64,000 nucleotides of DNA from Halopseudomonas xinjiangensis (GTDB lineage: Bacteria > Pseudomonadota > Gammaproteobacteria > Pseudomonadales > Pseudomonadaceae). The notes under the pieces are model-generated. The model was given only the letters and a program-made list of their open reading frames with translations. It ran no database searches and was not told the DNA's origin. Shown piece by piece: positions 2,018 through 7,356 of this stretch (position 1 is its first letter; each line of letters opens with the position of its first letter). The DNA is taken from NCBI GenBank assembly GCA_011050525.1, contig DRFO01000026.1, forward strand, positions 124,001 to 188,000, in the 5' to 3' direction. A program made the translations under genes and the position numbers.

Positions 2018-3454
2018 ATGCAAAATATCCCTGATGGTCTCATCGTCATTGTAAAGCGCGCCTGTCCCACCTGTGCGCTGATCGAGCCGATACTTGCCGA
2101 ACTGGCAAATAGCGGCCTTTCCCTTACCGTCATTGCCCAGGATACCGCTGATTTCGATGTCGGCAGTGGCCAGCAGATCGCCGATGCCGATCTCGGCTGG
2201 TCCTGGCGGCTGGATTGCGAAATCGTCCCTACGCTTATCCGCCGTGACCAGGGTGCCGAAGTTGATCGGACCTACGGCTGGTTCCGTGACGATTGGGAAC
2301 GCGTAAGTGGCTGCGATAGCCTGGGCAGCGATTTGCCCGCCTCCCGCCCTGGCTGTGGGTCCAAGACCCAGGATCCGGGAATGGCCGAAAAGCTCGCCAT
2401 TCGGTTCGGAGCGGTCACCTTCGCTTCGCGGGAAGTCGAGATCGGTGACAGCGAAGACCCCATAGAGGCCTGCTACGACCGGGGCTGGAGCGATGGCCTG
2501 CCGGTTATCCCGCCAACGCCGGAGCGGGTGTACCGCATGCTTCTTGGCACCACGCGCAAGGCAAACGAGGTGCTCGGGCTCATGCCGCCGGACCTGGTGC
2601 CCTGCACCGTCGAAAAAGTCGCCATCAATGCTGTGATGGCCGGATGCAAACCTGAATATATGCCAGTGGTCCTGGCTGCCATCGAGGCGGCCCTGATCGA
2701 CGAATTCGGCATGCATGGCCTGCTGTGTACCACCATGTTTGCTGGCCCCCTGGTTCTGGTAAACGGACCCGCGGCCAAGAGCATCGGCATGAATTCGGGG
2801 GTAAACGCGCTGGGCCAGGGCAATCGCGCCAATGCCAGTATCGGCCGGGCGCTACAGTTGGTAGTTCGCAACGTGGGCGGCGGCCGTCCCGGTGAAATTG
2901 ATCGCGCCACCATGGGCACGCCGGGAAAATATACCTTCTGTTTTGCCGAAGCCGAGGACAGCGAGTGGGAGCCCTTGTCCGTCGTTCGCGGCTTCGAGAA
3001 AGGCCAATCGGTAGTGACGCTGTTTGCCGCAGAAGGTGTGCAGGCAATTGTCGATCAAAAATCGCGCACACCCGAATCGCTCGCGCGCAGCTTTGCGTTG
3101 TCGCTGCGCGCGGTGGACCATTACAAACTGGTCATGCATGGGGACGCCATGCTGGTCGTTTCTCCGGAACATGCCCGGCTGTTTATCGAAGCCGGCTGGA
3201 GCAAGACCCGCCTGCTTCAGGAGCTGGAAACCCTGCTGACCTTACCCGGCAGCGAGCTGGTTACCGGTGCTGGCGGCATCACCGAAGGCATGCCCGCCAA
3301 CATGGCCGAGGCCAACCTGCCAAAATTCAGACCTGGCGGACTGATGATAGTACGGGCTGGTGGCCCGGCTGGTCTTTTTTCCGCTGTTATCGCTGGCTGG
3401 GCCGCTTCCGGTCCGACTGGCTCCACCCCGGTAAGCAAGGAGGTATTGGCATGA
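2018..3454 (+). CDS. CPTC thioredoxin-like protein, partner of the UGSC selenoprotein
   Basis: A 478-residue protein with no signal peptide. Residues 1-90 look like a thioredoxin/glutaredoxin fold with a CPTC redox motif (Cys16, Cys19) and a cis-Pro region EIVPTLI. The larger C-terminal part begins near a DRGWSDGLPVIPPTPERV stretch (about residue 153), contains AINAVMAGCKPEYMPVV and GNRANASIGRAL, and is Gly-rich at the end. I recognise this second domain as one usually found next to UGSC-family proteins, but know no enzymatic assignment. Its stop overlaps the start of the selenoprotein (ATGA), which implies translational coupling and a joint role, plausibly a redox or reductase reaction. The ribosome site before the ATG is weak (ACAGGT). 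Function is inferred only. Confidence 0.7.
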   Translation: MQNIPDGLIVIVKRACPTCALIEPILAELANSGLSLTVIAQDTADFDVGSGQQIADADLGWSWRLDCEIVPTLIRRDQGAEVDRTYGWFRDDWERVSGCDSLGSDLPASRPGCGSKTQDPGMAEKLAIRFGAVTFASREVEIGDSEDPIEACYDRGWSDGLPVIPPTPERVYRMLLGTTRKANEVLGLMPPDLVPCTVEKVAINAVMAGCKPEYMPVVLAAIEAALIDEFGMHGLLCTTMFAGPLVLVNGPAAKSIGMNSGVNALGQGNRANASIGRALQLVVRNVGGGRPGEIDRATMGTPGKYTFCFAEAEDSEWEPLSVVRGFEKGQSVVTLFAAEGVQAIVDQKSRTPESLARSFALSLRAVDHYKLVMHGDAMLVVSPEHARLFIEAGWSKTRLLQELETLLTLPGSELVTGAGGITEGMPANMAEANLPKFRPGGLMIVRAGGPAGLFSAVIAGWAASGPTGSTPVSKEVLA

Positions 3455-3972
3455 ATGCGCCAACCGTACTGCTAGACCCGACCGCCGAGCGTTCCCCGGC
3501 CAGCCGCAGCCTTACGGCCAGACCGGCAGGACTGGATGGCCTTACTGTCGGTTTGCTGGACATATCCAAGGCGCGCGGAAACGTGTTGCTGGATCGCCTG
3601 GATGAGTTGCTGAGTGAGCGCGGCATCGCGGTAAAACGATATCGCAAACCGACCTTCGCGCGCATCGCCCCTACTGAGCTGAAGCAACAGATAGCCAGCG
3701 AGTGCGATGTGCTGGTGGAAGGCTTGGCTGACTGAGGCTCCTGTACCTCGTGCTGTATGCATGATATAGGCGACCTTGAAAGCCGTAGCATCCCCGGAGT
3801 AGGAATTGCTTCGAGTGAATTCATCGAGGCAGCAGCATTGCAGTCCCGGTCTTTGGGAGTCGAACCCCGAATGGTGTTCGTACCTCACCCGATCCAGGAT
3901 CGTACTGACGAAGAACTGCGCAAGCTGGCCGATGAGGCCTTCGAGCAGATCGTCAAATCGCTTACCTCCTGA
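3451..3972 (+). CDS. UGSC-family selenoprotein (in-frame UGA = Sec95)
   Basis: Read through the UGA at 3733-3735, this frame gives a 173-residue protein. The context is VEGLAD-U-GSCTSCCMHDIGDLE, matching the UGSC motif in which cysteine homologues carry CGSC. The N-terminal half contains LLDPT, GLLDISK and the P-T-F-A segment of this family, and the C-terminal half continues without a break to IPGVGI, SSEFIEAA, VFVPHP and the TGA at 3970-3972. So the UGA interrupts a conserved domain. The ATG at 3451 has AAGGAGG seven bases upstream and overlaps the previous stop. Genes for SelA and SelB follow directly, and a stem-loop sits just after the UGA. Cys98, Cys101 and Cys102 could pair with Sec95 in a redox centre. 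The substrate is unknown. The alternative, a broken cysteine gene, is less likely because flanking codons and motifs are intact. Confidence 0.9.
3746..3770 (+). promoter_or_regulatory. Candidate bacterial SECIS stem-loop
   Basis: Directly after the UGA (10 bases on), CCT-CGTGC pairs with GCATG-ATAT-AGG around the loop TGTAT (3754-3758), one G-U pair and an ATAT bulge on the 3' side. The apical loop begins 18 bases after the UGA, within the spacing seen for bacterial SECIS elements, which SelB reads inside the coding sequence. The fold was drawn by eye. Confidence 0.6.
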
Positions 3973-4060: not shown

Positions 4061-5488
4061 ATGACAAGTACTCATCGACAACTGGATCAACTGATGACAC
4101 ACACCGACACCCGGCGCAGCCTGCCGTCCGTTGACCAGATTCTGGCCTGGCCGCTGGTGCGGGGAATGCAAGCGCACCACGGCCAGCCCTTGGTCAAACA
4201 GGCCGTCAGCGATCTGCTCAGCGCGTTGCGTCAAAACAACCTGCCCTGCCACCCCGACACCTTTGCTGCCTCGGTCGAGACGTACCTGCATGAATTGCTC
4301 AGCCCTTCCCTGCGCAAGGTCTTCAATCTCACTGGCACCGTATTGCATACCAATCTGGGCCGTGCGCCATTGCCGGAAGAGGCTATTCAGGCCATGTGCG
4401 ACGTCGCACGGGGCGCGAGCAACCTCGAGTTCGATCTGCACAAGGGCAAGCGCGGGGACCGTGACAGCCACATCGAAGACTGGCTCTGCCGCCTCACCGG
4501 CGCCGAGGCAGCAACCGTGGTAAACAACAATGCCGCCGCCGTACTGCTTGCCCTCAACACCCTGGCCAAGGGCAAGGAGGTGCTGGTATCACGCGGCGAA
4601 CTGGTGGAGATTGGCGGGTCCTTCAGGGTTCCCGATATCATGTTGCGCGCCCAGTGCAAGCTGCGTGAAGTCGGTACAACCAATCGCACCCACCTGCGTG
4701 ACTACACCGAGGCCGCAGGTAGCCGAACCGGTCTGTTGATGACCATCCACGCCAGCAACTACGTTATCCAGGGATTCACCGCCAGCGTGCCTGAAGCTCA
4801 ACTGGCAGAAGCCGCCCGCACGCTGGGTCTACCTTATGTGATCGACCTGGGCAGCGGGAGTCTGGTTGATCTGAGGCGTTTCGGCCTGCCCTACGAACCC
4901 ACACCCATGGACAGTCTCAAGAACGGTGCCGATCTGGTCACCTTCAGCGGCGACAAGCTTCTCGGCGGGCCACAGGCTGGCATCATCGTCGGCAGGCGCG
5001 AGCTGATAGAGCGGATCAAGAAGAACCCCCTCAAGCGTGCGCTGCGCTGTGACAAGCTCACGCTTGCGGCGCTGGAGGCAGTGCTGAAACTCTATGCCGA
5101 TCCTGATCGGCTTGCCGAGAAGCTACCGAGTCTGCGCTGGCTCAGCCGCACGCAGGAGCACATAGCTGCTCAGGCTCAGCGCCTACTGCCTGTATTCGAA
5201 TCCTGGGCAGGCAGCCGCTTTGCCGTCAGCTCCTTACCTTCCATGGGCCAGATCGGCAGCGGCGCCCTGCCAATAGAGCAGTTGCACAGCCAGGCCCTGG
5301 CGTTCGCACCACAGTGCAGCAAGCGTGAAATCAATCGCAGCCTGCAAGCGCTGCAAAGGAGTCTGAGAACGTTGCCGATCCCGGTCATAGGACGGGTCAG
5401 CGACAATCGCCTGTTGCTCGATCTACGTTGTCTTGATCAGGAAGCTGAACTGGTTGAACAACTTCAACGCCATCCACTGCAATGCTGA
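4061..5488 (+). CDS. selA: L-seryl-tRNA(Sec) selenium transferase SelA
   Basis: SelA is a PLP enzyme that converts seryl-tRNA(Sec) to selenocysteinyl-tRNA(Sec) using selenophosphate. The 475-residue length is close to the usual 460-470. The N-terminal LPSVDQIL helix region, NLTGTVLHTNLGR, the VVNNNAAAVLL segment and the PLP lysine in TFSGDKLLGGPQAG (Lys299) are all present. The ATG at 4061 has AGGA about 10 bases upstream; a second ATG at 4094 is possible and would give 464 residues. It lies 88 bases after the UGSC gene and overlaps selB by 7 bases, so selA-selB is translationally coupled and probably shares the selenoprotein transcript. Confidence 0.97.
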   Translation: MTSTHRQLDQLMTHTDTRRSLPSVDQILAWPLVRGMQAHHGQPLVKQAVSDLLSALRQNNLPCHPDTFAASVETYLHELLSPSLRKVFNLTGTVLHTNLGRAPLPEEAIQAMCDVARGASNLEFDLHKGKRGDRDSHIEDWLCRLTGAEAATVVNNNAAAVLLALNTLAKGKEVLVSRGELVEIGGSFRVPDIMLRAQCKLREVGTTNRTHLRDYTEAAGSRTGLLMTIHASNYVIQGFTASVPEAQLAEAARTLGLPYVIDLGSGSLVDLRRFGLPYEPTPMDSLKNGADLVTFSGDKLLGGPQAGIIVGRRELIERIKKNPLKRALRCDKLTLAALEAVLKLYADPDRLAEKLPSLRWLSRTQEHIAAQAQRLLPVFESWAGSRFAVSSLPSMGQIGSGALPIEQLHSQALAFAPQCSKREINRSLQALQRSLRTLPIPVIGRVSDNRLLLDLRCLDQEAELVEQLQRHPLQC

Positions 5489-7356
5489 TTGCCACCGCTG
5501 GGCATGTTGACCATGGCAAAACCGCGTTGATCAAAGCGCTTACCGGCCAGGTCACTGACCAGACGCCGGAAGAAAAGCGGCGCGGCATGAGTATCGAACT
5601 GGGTTATGCGTATCTGGTTAGCCCTTCCGGCCGCCGCGCCGATCTGATTGATGTACCTGGCCACGCCAAATTCATGCGGACGCTGATCGCCGGGATCAGC
5701 CGCGTCGAAACCGTGTTGCTGGTCATCGCAGCGGACGATGGACCAATGCCACAGACGCTGGAACATATAGCCCTGGTCCAGCTGTTGGGTATCAGGCAAG
5801 TTGCTCTGGTGGTCAGCAAATGCGACCGGGTGGACGAGGACCGGTACAGGGCAGTGGCCAGCCAGGGACTGGCGCTGCTGGCCGAAGCGGGACTGAACGA
5901 CATCCCTGCGTTCACTGTATCCAGCCTGACGGGCGCAGGAATGGAATCGCTACAGAGCTGGCTGCATCAAGTGGTGGACGACCGCACCCCGCCATCCTCG
6001 GATAGCGAACCCAGGTTCAGCATTGATCGGCACTTTCAGCAACCAGGCGCTGGGCTGATCCTTACCGGCACAGTACTCAACGGTCAGATCCGCGTTGGAG
6101 ACGCGCTATGCCTGTCGGAACGGGGTCAGCCAATCCGGGTGCGCCACATACAAATTCACGGGGAACCTGCCAACCAGGCCATCGCCGGGCAACGCTGCGC
6201 CTTGAACGTTGCCGGTGAGATAGAACCCGATGCGGTTATGCGCGGCAGCCTGTTACTGCCGAAGCGCTGCTGGCAGCCCACCCAGCGCGTCGATAGCGCC
6301 GTCTCGCTGATCGCATCGGTACGGGGAAAGGTCCAACTGCATATCGGCAACGCCACCGTTGGCGCCCGTCTCGTCCCGTTGAAAGGGCTTTTGCCTGATA
6401 ACGACGATCTATACGGCCAGTGGGTGCTTGATCAGCCGATATGCTGCCAGCAGGGTGAGCGCTTTGTCATTCGCGATCCGGCGGCCAGAGCGCTGCTAGG
6501 CGCTGGCCGGGTGGTCGATCCCTTCGCTCCTCAACGTGGCCGTCAGCAGGCAGCGCGTCTGGCCGTGCTGGCGGCGATGGACAGCGGATCGGCCGCAGAT
6601 ACTCTGCAGGCCTTGCTCGATCTGTTACCGGATGGCGTCGACTTGGCACGCTGGGCGCTGGTCCACAACCTGGCGCAGCATCAACAGGAGACTATTCTGG
6701 GGCAACTGGGCAACCGCGCCCACCGTTACAACAACTGGATGATCTGGCAGACACGGCTGGATCGAATGTGTGGACAGCTGTGCGAAACGCTTGAAACCCA
6801 CCACCAAGAGCACCCTGAACAACCGGGGCCTACCCTACCCCAAATGGCCCGCAGCCTGGGCTGCAACCTGTACAGCAAGCTTCTAAGCCGTGCGCTGCGT
6901 CAGTTGCTCACCGAGGGAACCCTGCATCAAAGCGGGCCCTGCCTACACCTGCCCGCGCACAAACCCACACCGGACCCACACAGTCTTGCATTCCTCGAAC
7001 AGGTCTCCGATATTTTTCATGCCTGCGCGCCGAGACCGCCCGTGATAGGTGAAATAATGCAGCGGTTGCAGATTGAGCGTGACGCCCTGATAGCTGAGCT
7101 CGACAACCTGAGCAGGCTGAATCTTCTGGTGTTCGTCAGCCGCAATCGCTATCTGCTCCCAGAGTCGGTGGGTGCACTGTATCGCGTACTGTGCGACACG
7201 GCATCCGGCGACGGGACAATAAATACCGCGACCTTCCGTGATCGCTCGGGAATTGGCCGCAACCACAGCGTGGCGGTACTCGAATATTTCGACCGCGCTG
7301 GTTTCACCCGCCTCAGGCTCGGACAACGCTGGCTTTGCGCGCCTGCCGCGCCATGA
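5482..7356 (+). CDS. selB: Selenocysteine-specific elongation factor SelB
   Basis: SelB is the EF-Tu-like GTPase that carries Sec-tRNA(Sec) to the ribosome and binds the SECIS hairpin with its C-terminal winged helices. G1 is GHVDHGKT (7-14), G3 is DVPGH (57-61) and G4 is SKCD (112-115). The EF-Tu-like domains 2 and 3 follow, and about residues 370-620 form the winged-helix region. The 624-residue length matches the family. The start overlaps the selA stop. Its 3' end overlaps the convergent Bcr-type transporter by 44 bases. Confidence 0.97.
   Translation: MLIATAGHVDHGKTALIKALTGQVTDQTPEEKRRGMSIELGYAYLVSPSGRRADLIDVPGHAKFMRTLIAGISRVETVLLVIAADDGPMPQTLEHIALVQLLGIRQVALVVSKCDRVDEDRYRAVASQGLALLAEAGLNDIPAFTVSSLTGAGMESLQSWLHQVVDDRTPPSSDSEPRFSIDRHFQQPGAGLILTGTVLNGQIRVGDALCLSERGQPIRVRHIQIHGEPANQAIAGQRCALNVAGEIEPDAVMRGSLLLPKRCWQPTQRVDSAVSLIASVRGKVQLHIGNATVGARLVPLKGLLPDNDDLYGQWVLDQPICCQQGERFVIRDPAARALLGAGRVVDPFAPQRGRQQAARLAVLAAMDSGSAADTLQALLDLLPDGVDLARWALVHNLAQHQQETILGQLGNRAHRYNNWMIWQTRLDRMCGQLCETLETHHQEHPEQPGPTLPQMARSLGCNLYSKLLSRALRQLLTEGTLHQSGPCLHLPAHKPTPDPHSLAFLEQVSDIFHACAPRPPVIGEIMQRLQIERDALIAELDNLSRLNLLVFVSRNRYLLPESVGALYRVLCDTASGDGTINTATFRDRSGIGRNHSVAVLEYFDRAGFTRLRLGQRWLCAPAAP

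Follow-up and report, generated by a model that had tools for sequence, protein, structure and literature searches.

A UGSC-family selenoprotein and its upstream partner gene P in Halopseudomonas: a two-gene unit with a probable remote relation to glycine-reductase selenoprotein B

Selenoprotein B of glycine reductase (GrdB) is described as the substrate-binding subunit that releases ammonia and carries a UxxCxxC motif, U being selenocysteine (Sec) (PMC13188914). For the same system a nucleophilic attack near the Sec, a STUG motif and substrate-specific B complexes have been described, a proposed fluoroacetate reductase being among the latter (PMC10838667). The UGSC selenoproteins were given a suggested thioredoxin-like fold in a 2008 GOS survey, which also reported a fusion to a conserved domain of unknown function, "Unknown_1" (PMC2398784); a later survey counted the family as 8.2% of selenoprotein genes (PMC9402790), and a 2026 review places it in a list ending with proteins of thioredoxin-like fold, the functions of such selenoproteins being largely uncharacterized (PMC13188914). 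Within the portions of this literature that were available, no statement was found that connects UGSC with GrdB or describes it as part of a unit of two genes. Here we describe a UGSC gene and the gene directly upstream of it, termed P, in a 64,000-nucleotide stretch of Halopseudomonas xinjiangensis DNA (GenBank assembly GCA_011050525.1, contig DRFO01000026.1, our contig G000:C26, 124001-188000), hereafter the window. The family, its abundance, a UAG-coded variant and a fusion are already known; what is added is the UGSC-P unit and its relation to GrdB.

The + strand of the window carries fabA, fabB, P, the UGSC gene, selA and selB. The features that concern the first two subjects of this study are the following:

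2018..3454, + strand: partner gene P, 478 residues (open reading frame, ORF; adjoins UGSC in relatives)
2063..2074, + strand: CPTC motif in the N-terminal thioredoxin-like part of P, residues 16-19 (partner alignment)
2477..3448, + strand: core domain of P, residues 154-477, with Cys210 and Cys308 (conserved Cys in partner alignments)
3438..3443, + strand: likely ribosome-binding site AGGAGG of the UGSC gene, 7 nucleotides (nt) 5' of the ATG (sequence)
3451..3972, + strand: UGSC-family selenoprotein gene, 173 residues (family-model scores)
3733..3735, + strand: in-frame UGA, predicted Sec codon, residue 95, first residue of the UGSC motif
3734..3777, + strand: hairpin resembling a Sec insertion sequence (SECIS), directly 3' of the UGA (folding; apical loop 3754-3758)

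The UGSC frame begins with an ATG that overlaps the stop of P by four bases (ATGA), contains the in-frame TGA at 3733-3735 and terminates with TGA at 3970-3972, the motif occupying residues 95-98 of 173. An earlier interpretation made from the letters of the window alone (the sequence-only reading) had named 3451-3972 as a UGSC-family selenoprotein gene in which the UGA, read as Sec, joins two frames into 173 residues with conserved sequence on both sides. Translation gives exactly this product, and it exceeds the cut-offs of both curated family models, with 155 bits for NF041046 (cut-off 125) and 147.7 bits for PF24696 (cut-off 25), each profile spanning both sides of the UGA. The gene is a member of the known UGSC family, and nothing was found that excludes membership. 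The prediction that ordinary gene calling would miss or split the gene was also accurate. The upstream half falls inside a 256-residue ORF with a GTG start that terminates at the UGA, while the downstream half is listed as a separate 71-residue ORF starting at 3757, and many public predicted UGSC proteins (among 120 listed of 422 matches) are 95-99 residues long; five of these were inspected and all stop at "...EGLAD" or "...EALAD".

That both the ORF list and public gene predictions end at the UGA is what favours taking this codon as a true stop and the gene as a decayed or truncated UGSC copy. We consider this extremely improbable in view of the coding constraint past the UGA, the hairpin, the Sec machinery and the presence of UGA at the same site across phyla. 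With Sec or Cys scored at the first residue of UG[SAT]C in homologues, 125 of 130 motif-bearing genes have TGA and five a Cys codon at the site (a few genes are present twice in this set, from two collections). A codon-by-codon set gave TGA at the motif in 60 of 63 genes, with Cys and no TGA in loci L026 and L098. A UGSC gene was present in 28 of 58 related genomes, all 28 matches having exactly one internal TGA, and in the codon comparison all 15 Halopseudomonas-group copies have TGA at the site; relatives with UGA there come from several phyla. The site is UAG in two Geodermatophilaceae, Blastococcus massiliensis (L131, 5665-5667) and Geodermatophilus obscurus (L171, 5665-5667), whose genomes each hold a tRNA-Sec-family gene above the gathering score with anticodon CUA, labelled tRNA-Pyl by ARAGORN. 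UAG-coded UGSC in this bacterial family has been reported before (PMC5330540, citing its ref. 56). The codon at the position of residue 95 is therefore UGA, UAG or Cys, in line with the expectation of the sequence-only reading and contrary to its refuting case of homologues with neither Cys nor Sec there.

Across the 60 codons after the UGA, the 15 Halopseudomonas-group copies show substitutions of 0.098, 0.055 and 0.446 at codon positions 1, 2 and 3; because third-position substitutions dominate, coding constraint continues past the apparent stop. The hairpin of the window has its loop at nt 22-26, counted from the U of UGA, and a minimum free energy of -19.0 kcal/mol versus -10.4 for synonymous recodings (z -3.37; 200 recodings per gene), and 8 of 200 dinucleotide shuffles of the 58-nt stretch fold as well (z -2.03). 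Similarly, 118 distinct Sec genes average -18.5 versus -12.6 kcal/mol (mean z -1.90), with z below -1 in 91 and the loop at nt 21-26 in 112 of them. Five Cys genes average a z of -0.52, with two below -1, a number too small for a firm contrast. An Rfam search of the window at gathering scores returned no match, and thus no SECIS. In combination with the machinery, the co-occurrence and the formate dehydrogenase pattern given further below, six types of evidence agree on Sec, the others being codon exchange, hairpin and constraint. The window gene is very likely a selenoprotein gene in which UGA is read as Sec.

Beyond what the sequence-only reading contained are the upstream gene P and the apparent relation to selenoprotein B. 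Judged from gene order, UGSC has a dedicated partner in P. A UGSC-derived set of 61 loci (20 plus 40 chosen stretches plus the window) holds 63 UGSC genes, and a P profile places P next to 62 of these, always with 300 nt or less between the profile matches, upstream of UGSC in 45 pairs and downstream in 17; in the exception, L081, the upstream frame looks hydantoinase-B-like by eye. The converse set comprises 80 named P loci, the best 80 of at least 587 confirmed matches, from Pseudomonadota, Actinomycetota, Acidobacteriota, Chloroflexota, Myxococcota, Hydrogenedentota and deltaproteobacteria according to the record titles. UGSC was detected at 71 of them, downstream on the same strand in 69 and divergent in 2 (at L118 and L149 it is seen only as pieces at the end of the available sequence), and at L184 and L188, where it was not, the record ends inside or just after P. 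Within the genus, P accompanies UGSC in all but one of the 27 genomes that have it, the exception being the 81%-complete G412, and it was not found in the 10 genomes that lack UGSC. At ten loci the two genes are fused into one frame, and "Unknown_1" of the 2008 survey is possibly P. Protein databases hold at least 8,000 P candidates versus 422 for UGSC, a difference due at least partly to the cutting of UGSC by gene callers.

Among the homologues listed, the closest named relative of the window's P is from Halopseudomonas salina (86% identity). Neither NCBIfam (E 0.001) nor Pfam (E 0.1) yields a match for the window protein, and its core of about 320 residues likewise finds nothing convincing in either collection. 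Cys210 and Cys308 of this core are invariant across an alignment of 20 sequences and reach at least 90% in one of 36. Two P-type frames stand side by side near one UGSC at L023, L085, L090, L091, L093, L096, L100, L106 and L108, which suggests a two-chain partner in some branches. At G431:C1:740457-741874 the P match comes in two overlapping pieces, as if frame-split, and the adjacent UGSC reads normally.

On the basis of profile comparisons, UGSC is taken here as a remote homologue of the Sec domain of GrdB, Sec on Sec, and not as a GrdB itself. When 106 UGSC proteins were scanned against 18,950 NCBIfam models, the most-matched families after the UGSC model (106 of 106) were TIGR01917 GrdB (71 proteins, best E 9e-6) and NF040794 GrdF (60, 8e-6), followed by TIGR01918 (31, 4e-4) and NF040795 GrdH (23, 1.4e-3), the next family having only 5. 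UGA-containing relatives of TIGR01918 were drawn from the phylum of genome G717, reached through L146 (Myxococcota by title), and the resulting 31-sequence set includes L201, a genuine GrdB fragment with 313.6 bits to TIGR01918. The UGSC profile matches L201 with E 7e-9 in this set; Sec131 of its UGTCTRC falls on the Sec column of UGSCTSC, so that the UxxCxxC motif is shared with selenoprotein B and the Sec is in register, and the later IP and HP stretches follow in the same order. Profile-profile comparison of UGSC with the 31 relatives, a profile that includes L216 translated from the wrong strand (the proper strand gives UPVC, like its neighbours), yielded E 7.7e-5 and a probability of 62%, the alignment starting shortly ahead of the Sec and reaching the C-terminus. 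In the reverse search with the 31-sequence profile, 103 of the 106 UGSC proteins match at E 10 and only 3 at E 0.01, compared with 8 and 0 in the reversed-sequence control. Profile comparison was informative only once UGA-containing relatives and one true GrdB fragment had been included.

With GrdB, GrdF and GrdH (TIGR01917, TIGR01918, NF040794, NF040795, PF07355) UGSC therefore has in common the UGxCxxC motif, the IP/HP order and the multiplication of paralogues. It differs in consisting of the Sec-containing C-terminal domain alone, and P has no detectable sequence similarity to GrdE; moreover, the hosts of UGSC, judged by organism names, do not resemble amino-acid-fermenting anaerobes. PrdB is a small Sec subunit that works with a second protein, an arrangement comparable to the one proposed for UGSC-P, and PrdB (TIGR04483) and PrdB-like proteins have UxxC or CxxC at the place corresponding to that in UGSC. 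Nevertheless, just 3 of the 106 UGSC proteins match TIGR04483, and weakly (best E 0.059).

We therefore favour, with a probability of roughly 0.55, a model in which UGSC and P form a split reductase that works in the way selenoprotein B does in glycine or D-proline reductase and cleaves a group off a small molecule. The steps beyond GrdB homology are ones that we infer by analogy. P would hold the substrate and supply catalytic groups, for which Cys210 and Cys308 are candidates, while Sec95 would be the nucleophile, its selenium attacking a substrate carbon so that the bound group is cut off. Cys98 would then resolve the adduct as a selenenyl sulfide, and the CPTC domain of P would return this to the selenol; for forms of P that have no CPTC, an outside thioredoxin and a neighbouring thioredoxin-reductase-like enzyme could carry out the reduction. 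The multiplied UGSC genes of some genomes would then have diversified in substrate, in the manner of the glycine, sarcosine, betaine, proline and fluoroacetate reductases.

Several observations weigh against this proposal. No scanned UGSC protein comes near a GrdB or PrdB cut-off, the window protein scoring 11.8 bits with TIGR01917 (cut-off 602) and 11.7 bits with NF040794 (cut-off 800), and Pfam GRDB is absent from the 25 of 38 families listed for the 106 proteins. UGSC has no GrdB N-terminal part and aligns only to profile positions 322-424 of 431-435. In the 31-sequence set only the true GrdB was matched by the UGSC profile, the other UGA-containing relatives giving E 0.5 or worse. Profiles compared with ten Cys-type PrdB-like proteins matched weakly (probability 0.65% and 1.3%; E 0.088 and 0.039), and this comparison, made with 22 and later 106 UGSC sequences, was set aside as too weak alone. 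The 36 P cores match no GrdE/PrdA-type family at E 10, a result that leaves room for very remote similarity; a pyruvoyl-type substrate site is unsupported because P has no detectable similarity to GrdE, PrdA or any listed family. At seven of the 80 P loci (L166, L169, L175, L185, L186, L187 and L189) at least 1.3 kb after P contain no UGSC. The matches that mark the N-terminal part of P as thioredoxin-like are weak, all five thioredoxin-reductase-like neighbours score below the TIGR01292 family cut-off, and the neighbouring genes do not point to a single substrate.

Some further matches were recorded in these searches. Pfam DUF116 gave weak matches in 18 of the 106 UGSC proteins (best E 9e-4). 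The UGA-containing PrdB-like proteins at L199, L200 and L202-L229 have UPxC where read, and UGA-containing TIGR01918 relatives occur in 25 of 188 genomes sampled in the phylum of G717, 10 of these 25 having two or more matches.

The N-terminal CPTC domain of the window's P resembles thioredoxin. C-x-T-C is present in 12 of 12 aligned partners having this part and VPT in 11 of 12, and CPTC with a VPT motif is typical of thioredoxins. The part matches thioredoxin H (E 0.15), TraF (0.029) and a TXD17-like model (0.17), all weakly, and database names of P homologues include "thioredoxin family protein". Of 70 partner frames, 28 have C-x-T-C among their first 60 residues, a count from which the CCAC of L075 was left out as being outside the gene and in which the L104 frame starts far upstream. 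A thioredoxin-reductase-like gene adjoins L023, L093, L106 and L108, whose P lacks the CPTC part, and also L026, although P has it there.

Such a domain, frequent in P, would also suit a different role, in which UGSC is a general thiol or peroxide redox protein, P is an accessory or chaperone, and no carbon-heteroatom bond is cleaved; U-x-x-C is a classical redox motif, and a thioredoxin-like fold was proposed in 2008. The structural predictions speak against that fold. The UGSC model (predicted local distance difference test, pLDDT, 90.8; predicted template modelling score, pTM, 0.83) has five beta-alpha units, with Sec95 between strand 87-93 (strand 3) and helix 96-111, and its neighbours are flavodoxin-like and Rossmann-like chains, so that a flavodoxin-like fold appears the better description. 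Furthermore, among the 25 of 33 families listed, the NCBIfam neighbours are GrdB and not thioredoxins or peroxiredoxins, and the roughly 320-residue core of a dedicated partner, together with up to eight matches per genome, suits a substrate-specific enzyme better. In combination, we regard a general redox role as rather unlikely. A natural UGSC-P fusion (L103, 555 residues) was predicted with pLDDT 90.5 and pTM 0.91, only residues 191-203 falling below 50; the pTM suggests that UGSC is confidently placed against P.

The gene neighbours were surveyed at 140 loci. A thiolase-type cluster lies near UGSC in nine (L151 6043-7287, L155 5978-7159 and seven others), directly 3' on the same strand in eight; two annotated members are acetyl-CoA C-acyltransferases, and the cluster is a possible substrate hint. 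Thioredoxin-reductase-like genes were found in 5 of the 140 loci, and other small clusters are mutY-, MBL-fold- and MscS-like. No metal-resistance gene is among the ten annotated neighbour proteins, the other neighbour clusters not being annotated. This counts against a reading in which the target of UGSC-P would be a selenium, sulfur, metal or organometal compound, to be dealkylated or detoxified for example, with Sec as a soft ligand and not as a carbon nucleophile. The two invariant Cys of the P core would fit such chemistry, and some bacterial selenoproteins of unknown function have been discussed in connection with heavy-metal detoxification (PMC13188914); on balance we find it distinctly unlikely.

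UGSC is common, and gene callers cut its gene in two. The partner, the fusions, the predicted joint structure and the GrdB link would recast an "unknown redox protein" as an enzyme class that can be tested, and the partner and the GrdB relation together open the reductase mechanism to testing. If it holds, selenium-dependent reductive cleavage, known from fermenting anaerobes, extends to common soil and water bacteria. In a phylum-wide sample of 398 genomes PF24696 matched 5, and in the class of G139 it matched 28 of 289; the largest number in one genome was eight (G617), each with one TGA. We put forward only tentatively the wider proposal that UGSC-P is a large overlooked branch of the GrdB superfamily in non-fermenters of several phyla, present up to about eightfold per genome, consisting of Sec reductases in split or fused form of which many contain their own thioredoxin-like domain, with each pair cutting a different carbon-heteroatom bond.

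The genome of the window holds a full Sec set. Two of its genes lie just downstream of UGSC:

4061..5488, + strand: selA, L-seryl-tRNA(Sec) selenium transferase (TIGR00474, 581 bits, cut-off 267.9)
5482..7356, + strand: selB, Sec-specific elongation factor (TIGR00475, 359 bits, cut-off 242.25)

The other two, tRNA-Sec with anticodon UCA (73.8 bits versus a gathering score of 47) and selD (442 bits), are located elsewhere in the genome. In the survey of 140 loci, selB and selA were each found in 22, of which 13 and 12, respectively, belong to the Halopseudomonas group. UGSC and selA are both present in the same 27 of 37 genus genomes and both absent from the same 10. Formate dehydrogenase alpha is a common Sec client. 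It occurs in 5 of the 37 genomes; three of these, all with selA, have TGA in the gene, and the two others, which lack selA, do not. None was found in the genome of the window. In most Halopseudomonas genomes Sec may be retained mainly for a UGSC-P pair.

The selD gene is present in 34 of the 37 genomes, missing from two of the ten without UGSC and from G422, a 91%-complete genome in which UGSC and selA were found. It is retained in eight of the ten genomes without selA and UGSC (G401, G402, G404, G405, G417, G423, G425 and G432), and selenophosphate may therefore serve another use there, e.g. tRNA selenouridine. Finally, the UGSC gene at L025 (4507-4800, - strand) has Cys at the motif (CGSC), yet some 30 residues further on the frame contains a TGA at a position occupied by Trp in its relative L027; this extra TGA may reflect decay, a sequence error or something else.

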